A stretch of 64,000 bases of DNA, taken from NCBI RefSeq assembly GCF_019145355.1, contig NZ_JAHSTY010000002.1, positions 186,001 to 250,000 of the forward strand. Direction: 5' to 3'. Below the pieces are notes generated by a model. That model ran no database searches. It was not told the DNA's origin and worked only from the letters and a program-made list of their open reading frames with translations. Of this stretch, positions 6,221-40,050 are shown one piece after another. The translations under genes and the position numbers were made by a program. Numbering within the stretch: the stretch's first letter is position 1; each line of letters starts with the position of its first letter. The stretch is from Pseudomonas azadiae. GTDB taxonomy: Bacteria; Pseudomonadota; Gammaproteobacteria; Pseudomonadales; Pseudomonadaceae.

Positions 6221-6299
6221 TGCCTACACAACGATCAGAATCGTCTGAGTTGTGCGCCTTGGGCGACCTCTTTAAGGTTCGTCTGCCGCTGCCCATCAG

Positions 6300-6505
6300 C
6301 GGTCGGGTTTAGTAGCCCGATGAAAATTTATCCGGCGTACGGCTGTCCTTATTTGTCAGGCATTTCATGCCTGTGCTTATTGGTAGTTGTACGTAGGGCG
6401 TCTTCGGGCGCGCCGGTTTTTTCGGATGAATTTTCCCGGTCTACTAACCTGCGTACAGCTGCCACCCTAACCCTTCGGGTGGCGGTCCTTATCGAGGATC
6501 AACAG
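6300..6505 (+). ncRNA. Structured 5' leader of DUF6124-like gene, copy A
   Basis: The 5' leader shares three blocks with a second leader at 39351-39560: 6300-6325, 6396-6417 and 6436-6467. Block 1 (TTAGTAGCCCG) pairs with block 3 (CGGTCTACTAA) over ~120 nt with one mismatch. In copy B both partners have changed together. Block 2 forms a GCGTC-UUCG-GGCGC hairpin. Other hairpins are CAGGCAT/ATGCCTG at 6357-6373 and GCCACCC/GGGTGGC at 6461-6483 just before the gene. The GAGG ribosome site lies after the last hairpin. Whether it is a cis-regulator or an independent RNA is unknown. Confidence 0.65.
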
Positions 6506-6745
6506 ATGTGTAATGACTCATGTAATCCATCCGTAAAACTCTTCAGCGTCCGTCCCGAAGCCAACACCGAAGCGTTGCTCGCCAACGCCTATGAAACCAT
6601 CGCTGGCGCCGGGGCCATGACCAATGAGTTCGCCGAAACCCTGCCTTCCCAACAGCGCTACCTGGCCCTGGCCATCCAGCAAATGATCGAGTTGGGGCTG
6701 ATGCTGGTGGAAGCGGCGCAAGACCGCGTGGACCGCGCCGCGTAA
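6506..6745 (+). CDS. DUF6124/DUF3077-like small protein
   Basis: A 79-aa protein starting at ATG 6506 behind GAGG. The core KLFSVRPEANTEALLANAYETIAGA followed by two helices (RYLALAIQQMIELGLMLVEAA) matches the small helical proteins annotated DUF3077/DUF6124 that are abundant in Pseudomonas and have no known function. The long in-frame extension upstream to 6212 is leader RNA, not protein. A decayed relative lies at 39565-39833 behind the same leader type. Confidence 0.7.
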   Translation: MCNDSCNPSVKLFSVRPEANTEALLANAYETIAGAGAMTNEFAETLPSQQRYLALAIQQMIELGLMLVEAAQDRVDRAA

Positions 6746-7504: not shown

Positions 7505-7697
7505 GCATAGGTATCTACACATTTTTTGTAGTGAGCGGGCTTGTCCCGCGCTGGGCTGAAGCGGCCCCAAACCAGGCGAATTGGGTTTGTCTGAAACTGC
7601 GCGGCGTCTTTATTGGGGCGGCTTCGCCACCCAGCGCGGGACAAGCCCGCTCACTACAGGGAATTGTCAGCCTCTGAAAGTTGTATAGATACCTATG
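7505..7697. repeat. Short inverted repeat enclosing a REPIN
   Basis: GCATAGGTATCTACA at 7505-7519 is matched in reverse by TGTATAGATACCTATG ending at 7697, one extra base in the right arm. Between them sits the REPIN at 7528-7658. A different REP-like word (GGCTATCGCAGGCAAGCCAG) follows from 7697, so two palindromic repeat families appear nested. Confidence 0.6.
7528..7658. repeat. REPIN-like palindromic element, copy 1
   Basis: 131 bp bounded by GTAGTGAGCGGGCTTGTCCC and its reverse complement. It contains inner inverted sequence (GGCTGAAGCGGCCCCAAACC / GGGGCGGCTTCGCCACC). The same layout occurs at 32931, 39887 and 62437. Such REP doublets are mobilised by RAYT transposases encoded elsewhere; none is in this window. 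Confidence 0.88.
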
Positions 7698-39148: not shown

Positions 39149-39350
39149 ATAACCTTCCTGGCAATTATGTCGCCACACGGCGACCTTTTTCAGGCTAGCT
39201 CAGAGGCGCCGTTGCTCAAGTTTCGGTAGGCGATTTGTCGTTACCAAGCCTTTCCGAAATAGCCGCTTACGTTGTGCAGGATCGGCAGTTCCCGAGCAGG
39301 GTTGCGTTGGCTGGGGCAGGGCGCTAACCTTCCGCCGTCGCCCTTATGGC

Positions 39351-39560
39351 GACCGGTTTTGACAGACCGAATAACGTGCGACTCTGCGCATCCCCAAACT
39401 GGTTTCAGACGTTTGTCTGTGCCCACCTGTTATGGCGGCTGTGCGTGGGGCACCTTCGGGTGCGCCGGGTGCCCACGTTTCCGGTCTGTCAACCCGCGTA
39501 CAGCTGCCACCCAAACCTGTTTGACAGCAGGAGTGGTAGCTCCTTCATAACGTGGAGTTA
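39351..39560 (+). ncRNA. Structured 5' leader, copy B
   Basis: Shares three blocks with 6300-6505. TTGACAGACCG (39359-39369) pairs perfectly with CGGTCTGTCAA (39482-39492), 11 bp closing ~112 nt. Inside are CAGAC/GTCTG (39406-39419) and the GCACC-UUCG-GGTGC hairpin at ~39450-39464. Then GCTGCCAC pairs with GTGGTAGC just before the broken gene. Three positions of the long helix and two of the UUCG hairpin differ from copy A while staying paired. Copy B precedes a decayed gene, yet its pairing is perfect. 39149-39350 shows nothing clear. Confidence 0.65.
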
Positions 39561-39564
39561 CATC

Positions 39565-39833
39565 ATAAAAAAAATCACCGCTAATCCAACTGAACCTCTC
39601 TATAGCGAAAGGCATTCGCCAAGATCTTTTGCGTAGCCGATGATGTCGGCACCGAAGAAGCCCTGACAAACGCCTCCGAAATTCTCTCGTCCGCTCTCCA
39701 AACTGCCTACCAATGCGCTGAAGATCCAGACAGCAGGCAGTCACCCGTGATCATGGCCTTGGCTCAATTGATCGAGAACGCCCAGGCATTGGTGGATTCA
39801 GTCCTGGAGCGTGCTTTCCCTACAGCCGGATAA
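39565..39833 (+). pseudogene. Decayed DUF6124-like gene
   Basis: Behind GGAG (39554-39557) the expected start is ATA at 39565, then KKITANPTEPLYSERHSPR. The frame ends at 39636. The rest continues in another frame from 39609/39624: KIFCVADDVGTEEALTNASE through VDSVLERAFPTAG to TAA 39831-39833. This tail resembles KLFSVRPEANTEALLANAYE of the gene at 6506. Lost ATG plus a frameshift argue for a pseudogene. Confidence 0.72.
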
Positions 39834-39886: not shown

Positions 39887-40019
39887 GTAGTGAGCGGGCT
39901 TGTCCCGCGCTGGGTGGCGAAGCCGCCCCAATAAAGACAGCGCCGAGTACCAGATAGAACCAAGTCGCCTGGTTTGGGGCCGCTGCGCAGCCCAGCGCGG
40001 GACAAGCCCGCTCACTACA
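39887..40019. repeat. REPIN-like palindromic element, copy 3
   Basis: Bounded by GTAGTGAGCGGGCTTGTCCC and reverse complement; the left half is near-identical to copy 4. The interval 39834-40050 holds nothing else. Confidence 0.9.
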
Positions 40020-40050
40020 GGGAGCATTTTGAGCCTTTGGAGGACATGGG

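Follow-up and report, generated by a model that had tools for sequence, protein, structure and literature searches.

C4 antisense RNA units with matching leader targets precede DUF6124 and other small-protein genes in the chromosome of Pseudomonas azadiae

The stretch of the Pseudomonas azadiae genome analyzed here (64,000 nucleotides, contig NZ_JAHSTY010000002.1, positions 186,001 to 250,000 of the forward strand; hereafter the window) contains two leaders that lie in front of DUF6124 genes, at locus A (6300–6505) and at locus B (39351–39560), and each of them holds a C4 antisense RNA. In phages P1 and P7, C4 antisense RNA holds an antirepressor gene off. Very probably, both leaders are chromosomal C4 units of the type known from P1 and P7, a type that would hold its small-protein gene off at translation, and we regard, with equally high confidence, a domesticated P1-type translational off-switch that has expanded in Pseudomonas as the best reading of the data. 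The membership in this RNA family, the bipartite complementarity, the co-evolution of that complementarity, the copy number, and the linkage to genes are demonstrated below. According to the proposed mechanism, a single promoter would drive a transcript in which a target copy (a1b1) and C4 are followed by a repeat of the target (a2b2) at the ribosome-binding site and by the small-protein gene. RNase P would probably cut C4 out at a conserved GG, and, judging from the pairing, the 3′ junction of C4 would bind a2 while the loop of its second hairpin would bind the Shine-Dalgarno region (b2), so that the gene would be kept off. The promoter, deduced from its sequence, and RNase P processing, binding, and repression are the parts of this scheme that we infer. 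The blocks were named a and b by geometry after the published description of P1, and the correspondence is a presumed one.

As an Rfam search of the window revealed, the C4 antisense RNA model (RF01695, cut-off 45) matches locus A with 70.2 bits and locus B with 86.3 bits. Upstream of C4, the c4-a1b1 model (RF03163) scored 50.9 bits at locus A and 44.2 bits, just under the cut-off of 46.7, at locus B, where the a1b1 complementarity is clear despite this score. A first-pass annotation had described the two leaders as a structured RNA with compensatory changes, perhaps a riboswitch-like regulator or a thermosensor. The observation is real: the leader sequences and their blocks are present at both loci, with coordinates that we verified; the RNA structure is under selection, as indicated by the C4 matches and by covariation well beyond chance; and an RNA regulator does precede small DUF6124 proteins at both loci (RF01695). 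The kind of RNA is, however, already known, and because both leaders match Rfam families with an explained function (RF01695 and RF03163), the interpretation given then is superseded. No riboswitch family was found among the Rfam matches of the window and no sign of a ligand aptamer or of a thermosensor was seen; both ideas were dropped in view of the C4 match. Nor is either locus a P1-type immunity unit, that is, C4 with an antirepressor in a phage or prophage, as it is DUF6124 that follows C4 at both.

In the 30 of 36 units of the genome that were aligned, the C4 helices are paired in 97.8% of cells and 10 of 27 pairs show two-sided change; none of 500 shuffles reached the value for helix pairing or for two-sided change, to be read with the reservation that related sequences can exceed shuffles. 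Helix 3 alone has two-sided change in none of its five pairs. Covariation extends beyond the two copies, being present over 36 paralogues and 17 sequences of locus A, with two versions among eight sequences of locus B. Judged by eye, variation is greatest in the block complementary to the Shine-Dalgarno region.

All features described here lie on the forward strand. At locus A, a putative sigma-70-like promoter, recognized by sequence only, consists of TTGTGC (6250–6255), a 17-base spacer, and TAAGGT (6273–6278); in the 17 aligned sequences of this locus, TAAGGT is always kept and the −35 box is TTGTGC or TTGTAC. The RF03163 match (6272–6323) takes in the 5′ hairpin of the c4-a1b1 element (6286–6302) and the a1 hairpin (6304–6319), in which TTTAGTAG (6308–6315) is complementary to the C4 junction. 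This block is invariant in the 17 sequences, and the junction is likewise unvarying. The upstream partner of the C4 loop, b1 (6321–6336), forms 14 contiguous pairs with 6421–6436. C4 itself (6376–6469) comprises the UUCG hairpin (6398–6411), which is its first hairpin, the loop block b′ (6421–6436), and the junction a′ (6438–6449), and the GG at 6382–6383 matches the position of the RNase P site reported for P1/P7 (PMC5320573). In the region where the downstream target would be expected (6470–6500), the TTTAGTAG block is absent, and the Shine-Dalgarno sequence GAGGA (6494–6498) matches the loop poorly. The gene that follows (6506–6745) is intact and encodes a DUF6124 protein of 79 amino acids (PF19619, 2.9e-20). 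The span first annotated, 6300–6505, holds C4 and leaves out the promoter-like site (6250–6278) and the start of the target element (from 6272).

At locus B, the promoter-like site, again a matter of sequence, consists of TTGCGT (39302–39307), 17 bases, and TAACCT (39325–39330). Here the a1 hairpin (39354–39369; RF03163 match 39324–39373) is followed by b1 (ATAACGTG, 39371–39378) and by C4 (39428–39514) with its GG (39434–39435), loop block (CCCACGTT, 39472–39479), and junction (39483–39494). Complementarity and orthologue comparison assign the junction target a2 to GTTTGACAGC (39519–39528) and the loop target b2, in the Shine-Dalgarno region, to ATAACGTGGAG (39547–39557). The second target over the ribosome-binding site is present at locus B, as it is across the 36 units as a set, and absent at locus A. 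The DUF6124 gene of locus B (39565–39812) is broken: the start position reads ATA (39565–39567) in the window versus ATG in all seven aligned orthologues, and the DUF6124 remnant (39624–39812) is in a different frame. To judge from the sequence, the locus keeps the layout of a C4 unit although its gene is broken. By eye, REP-like inverted repeats of the form AGTGAGCGGGCTTGTCCCGCGCTGGG lie near both loci (7530–7662 and 39887–40022).

What had been taken for an outer helix of one RNA fold joins TTAGTAGCCCG (6309–6319) to CGGTCTACTAA (6437–6447) at locus A, with 10 of 11 pairs and one C × U, and TTGACAGACCG (39359–39369) to CGGTCTGTCAA (39482–39492) at locus B, with 11 of 11 pairs. The three two-sided pair changes noted between the loci are correct; the pairing is actually that of the leader target copy a1 with the 3′ junction of C4, an antisense-target interaction. 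Of the two compensated pairs ascribed to the UUCG hairpin, which is present in both loci, only the change from G-C to A-U is two-sided; that from U-G to C-G is one-sided.

The 6.1-Mb genome contains at least 36 C4 matches over the RF01695 cut-off, a count that may be a lower bound as 150 of 1983 first-look candidates were scored. In the 36 units, all inspected, the usual order is promoter-like site, short hairpin, a1, b1, C4, a2, Shine-Dalgarno sequence (b2), and start codon. An a1b1 match (E up to 0.1) was detected in 33 of the 36 and ends 25–62 bases before C4, and in ∼30 of the 36 promoter-like boxes lie directly before the a1b1 element, as judged by eye from a scan that was forced to report boxes for every unit. 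Many units (L004, L005, L023, L030, and others) share a palindrome-like motif, GGAnnTTTCCTACA, which precedes the −35 box by ∼10–20 bases. It carries 12.7 bits per site compared with 6.5–6.7 in shuffled sequence (34 of 36 units, which are related and several of which have no clear copy), and it suggests a common transcription factor. A regulon defined by the palindrome GGANNTTTCCNRCA was rejected: 7 of 26 exact hits in the genome fell at C4-type units, a reversed control pattern had 6 hits, and most of the 8 inspected among the 19 hits outside such units appeared genic or unrelated.

The genome encodes 33 distinct DUF6124/DUF3077 domains (E up to 0.01), of which 29 lie no more than 400 bases behind a C4, two lie behind a1b1 without C4 (L104 and L106), and two more have neither. 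Conversely, 29 of the 36 C4 units precede DUF6124/DUF3077 and seven precede other proteins, namely four of MNRY type, two of PPRRF type, and one with a Bro-N domain. No Pfam match was found for the MNRY-type and PPRRF-type proteins (one of each scanned), and a kinship of DUF6124 to these proteins of six units was rejected by profile comparison (probability 0.1%). The Bro-N domain of the remaining protein (unit L019, G000:C1:2982753-2982840) matches phage anti-repressors and lies behind an N terminus (MQVLTPDPPT) that resembles that of DUF6124 and DUF3077 proteins; the proteins of many units start M-x-K-x-x-P-N/D-P-P regardless of the domain that follows. In four cases (L104, L106, L107, and L108), a1b1 leads directly to a Shine-Dalgarno sequence and a small gene, and recombination between the direct repeats may have removed their C4. 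One DUF6124/DUF3077 gene without a C4 leader (L105) adjoins a PrrF small RNA gene (160.9 bits).

AlphaFold2, run with 56 sequences, predicts the DUF6124 protein of locus A to be a helical hairpin (pLDDT 86.6, pTM 0.69). A Foldseek search with this model returned no convincing match, the best E being 0.40 in the PDB and 0.29 among viral models. A defence protein was considered because Pfam matched the Acb2/Tad1 hairpin weakly (E 0.11, short of the cut-off), an idea that Foldseek did not support, and a type I toxin was rejected because the proteins appear soluble and charged on inspection. Against the off-switch reading, our searches revealed no resemblance of DUF6124 to a known antirepressor.

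To compare pairing within and between units, duplex energies were calculated for the C4 hairpin-2 loop and 3′ junction against the two downstream targets (the Shine-Dalgarno region and the block that follows C4) and against both of the upstream copies, taken from the same unit or from foreign ones (start codons of L001, L003, and L025 were set by hand). Each of the four pairings favors the own target: −13.6 versus −7.9 kcal/mol for loop with Shine-Dalgarno region and −9.6 versus −5.3 for junction with a2 (36 units), and −13.3 versus −7.9 for loop with b1 and −11.2 versus −6.2 for junction with a1 (33 units). In every case, 0 of 10,000 permutations reached the observed mean; because the units are paralogues, these figures overstate independence and are not probabilities. 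The own target ranked first in 16/36 units for loop with Shine-Dalgarno region, in 17/36 for junction with a2, and in 12/33 for each upstream pairing, and when both blocks were summed, it ranked first in 27/36 downstream and 26/33 upstream, with another unit's target outscoring the own one downstream in 9/36. The C4 of locus A scores better with L017 than with its own target (−20.9 versus −14.0), and L017 and locus A have the junction block in common. The adjacent units L027 and L028 encode nearly identical proteins and differ in the loop and its partners. In a run with wide windows, the junction showed no excess against the whole downstream region (1212/10,000 permutations) and the loop a small one against 140 upstream bases (2/10,000), and a reversed-loop control showed none (4355/10,000). 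A second set of 34 units from other genomes (33 with an ORF, some of them short and doubtful; 30 distinct) gave −16.3 versus −9.7 for loop with Shine-Dalgarno region and −9.5 versus −6.7 for junction with a2 (0/10,000 permutations each, 30 units), and the excess of the loop with the upstream copy was small (−12.4 versus −11.1; own first in 2/30).

The pairing data also bear on a second reading, that the leader is mainly a two-state RNA acting in cis, in which either a1b1 forms a long hairpin with the loop and junction of C4 or C4 adopts its own fold; we consider this possible and yet rather unlikely. When the 3′ strand of the C4 closing helix was barred from pairing, the long hairpin incorporated the loop (6 nucleotides or more) in 36/36 units and the junction in 34/36; in 216 chimeras with the upstream part of another unit, the corresponding figures were 33% and 22%. 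The mean gap between the two folds is 7.1 kcal/mol for own leaders versus 14.9 in 288 chimeric leaders, and in 21/36 units the own leader does better than all eight of its chimeras. When whole leaders were folded without constraint, the long hairpin prevailed in 15/36 and the C4 fold in 21/36. Locus A, where loop–b1 complementarity is kept without a2b2, has two folds of nearly equal energy (−81.0 and −80.0). However, by computed stability the C4 fold is favored in 31/36 units, with locus A among the five exceptions; the case for two states in cis is built on computed energies, and most of the data fit simple repression with a second binding site. Under a two-state leader, a C4 acting in trans on a new a1b1 would push that transcript toward the C4 fold, and the off state would therefore be self-maintaining. 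The modeled alternative fold of a1b1, which depends on a matching upstream part, could make the switch bistable. A bolder extension, which we think improbable, is that chromosomes of Pseudomonas harbor dozens of mutually insulated, self-sustaining RNA memory switches: released C4 would occupy the a1b1 of the next transcript, force C4 to be remade, and shut the gene, so that each DUF6124-type gene would be heritably off and singly flippable, with new private codes arising when, following duplication, three blocks change in concert.

For locus A, 16 relatives in named Pseudomonas (L045–L060; L060 matches the first half of the protein only) and the window make 17 sequences, in which loop and b1 occur in 10 distinct versions. 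The loop prefers its own b1 (−13.2 versus −6.7; own first in 7/10; 0/10,000 permutations), and over the same 10 loop versions there is almost no own excess with b2 (−8.5 versus −8.1). The TTTAGTAG block behind C4 is retained in seven of the 17 sequences (L049–L052, L054, L055, and L060), where loop with Shine-Dalgarno region gives −9.9 to −13.2 kcal/mol, and is deleted or changed in the other 10, the window included, where it gives −5.9 to −8.7. It follows that loss of the downstream target did not stop loop and b1 from evolving together. Locus A, which has no a2b2, is an informative exception within the C4 unit family: its DUF6124 gene has probably escaped repression, and its C4–a1b1 pairing most likely still co-evolves because it matters as transcript structure or as feedback on C4. 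For locus B, seven aligned relatives (L069–L075) and the window make eight sequences in two versions, with b1/loop/b2 of about AACGTG/CACGTT/AACGTGGAG in the window and L069 and about ACAGG/CCTGTA/ATACAGGAG in the other six. As b1, loop, and b2 all differ together, there was at least one concerted change. The neighboring tRNA is kept in 11 of 15 scanned orthologues of locus A and 3 of 5 of locus B.

The co-changes of loop and b1 at locus A could also be purely mutational, that is, produced by template switching between the arms of an inverted repeat and owing nothing to selection on RNA, given that the two blocks are inverted repeats ∼85 bases apart with long matches (up to 14 pairs). This is very unlikely, as the co-change at locus B extends to b2, which repeats b1 in direct orientation, and the C4 scaffold stays intact in 15 of 16 orthologues of locus A, those scanned (72.8–83.1 bits).

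C4 was detected in 110 of 119 genomes of Pseudomonas species, this one included; 33 candidates were scored per genome, so that a count close to 33 is a minimum. Of 228 further genomes in the class (18 candidates scored in each), 11 have C4, in 1–4 copies. DUF6124 was present in 95 of the 119 and was not found in any of 273 further genomes in the class. Among 7997 scored candidates, 905 were DUF6124 homologues, and among the 120 homologues listed, the named organisms are Pseudomonas except for one Klebsiella quasipneumoniae record. A role as mobile-element cargo was rejected: a DUF6124 query found a single phage record, at the record edge beside a prophage repressor gene, another found no plasmid record, and a DUF3077 query found no phage record. 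C4 itself is present on mobile DNA: part of the locus B leader is matched in 10 records of phages and 11 of plasmids, although one plasmid match spans just bases 10–54, outside C4. In phages PAJU2 and PAShipCat1, 52 bases separate the end of the C4-like stretch from an 861-base gene that is annotated as anti-repressor in PAShipCat1 and as hypothetical in PAJU2, and the phiAH14b match falls within a hypothetical gene that adjoins a Rha-like gene. One of the 34 units from other genomes (L102) precedes a protein that, by eye, resembles a phage Rha-type regulator. That the C4 RNAs form an immunity repertoire acting in trans on antirepressor transcripts of incoming phages, one option named in a study of Acinetobacter baumannii (PMC5320573) and in keeping with C4-like stretches in 10 phage records, mostly of Pseudomonas phages and in two cases immediately ahead of an antirepressor or an equally long gene, is very unlikely, as most C4s here have in their own transcript a matching target that would be superfluous for such a repertoire.

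The units resemble the C4 RNA of P1/P7 (RF01695, with a1b1 RF03163) in fold, in the pairing with a leader copy and a copy at the ribosome-binding site, and in the GG at the reported processing site. In P1, a small ORF or the antirepressor lies downstream of C4, and here likewise a small gene. Unlike in P1/P7, the units are chromosomal, occur in dozens of copies, and carry DUF6124/DUF3077 and other small proteins as cargo, and locus A is without a downstream target. In P1 and P7, RNase P releases C4 from a longer transcript by cleavage at GGW, and C4 binds its target at the ribosome-binding site, as PMC5320573 in part describes; the anatomy of the units here is consistent with this. The same source, in the part accessible, presents the Group 1 sRNAs of A. 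baumannii, with 21 C4-like members; as here, they form a large C4-derived family in one genome with a variable recognition loop, and whereas that part names no target for them (PMC5320573), the units here stand before their own matching target and gene. In Weinberg et al. (2010), c4 and c4-a1b1 are assigned to Proteobacteria or gamma-Proteobacteria and to phages, and both are marked as RNA and as neither cis-regulatory nor riboswitch (PMC2864571). The isrK RNA of Salmonella Gifsy-1 (RF01394) overlaps the a1b1 of locus A weakly, scoring 29.4 bits (E 0.02) against a cut-off of 50, whereas a few relatives and one C4-less unit of this genome exceed that cut-off. In Burkholderia cenocepacia, isrK and C4 belong to one transcript, according to extracts of PMC4603805. 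isrK differs in being, as far as the accessible text of a review goes (PMC12197685), an mRNA and an sRNA that activates anrP/antQ. DUF3077 is named in work on furfural tolerance (PMC9630843, in part) and was not found named elsewhere in the open-licence literature, and no link between C4 and DUF6124 was found in the open-licence literature searched. The multi-copy chromosomal form of C4, with private codes and new cargo, is undescribed as far as these searches reach.

Overall, the results tie DUF6124, a large orphan family, to a known RNA mechanism and give a clear first test of its function. The dozens of related antisense RNA–target pairs in one cell are a natural set from which the rules of RNA insulation can be read, and locus A, in which the downstream target is gone and the upstream pairing is still co-evolving, is a natural experiment that makes the role of a1b1 testable.
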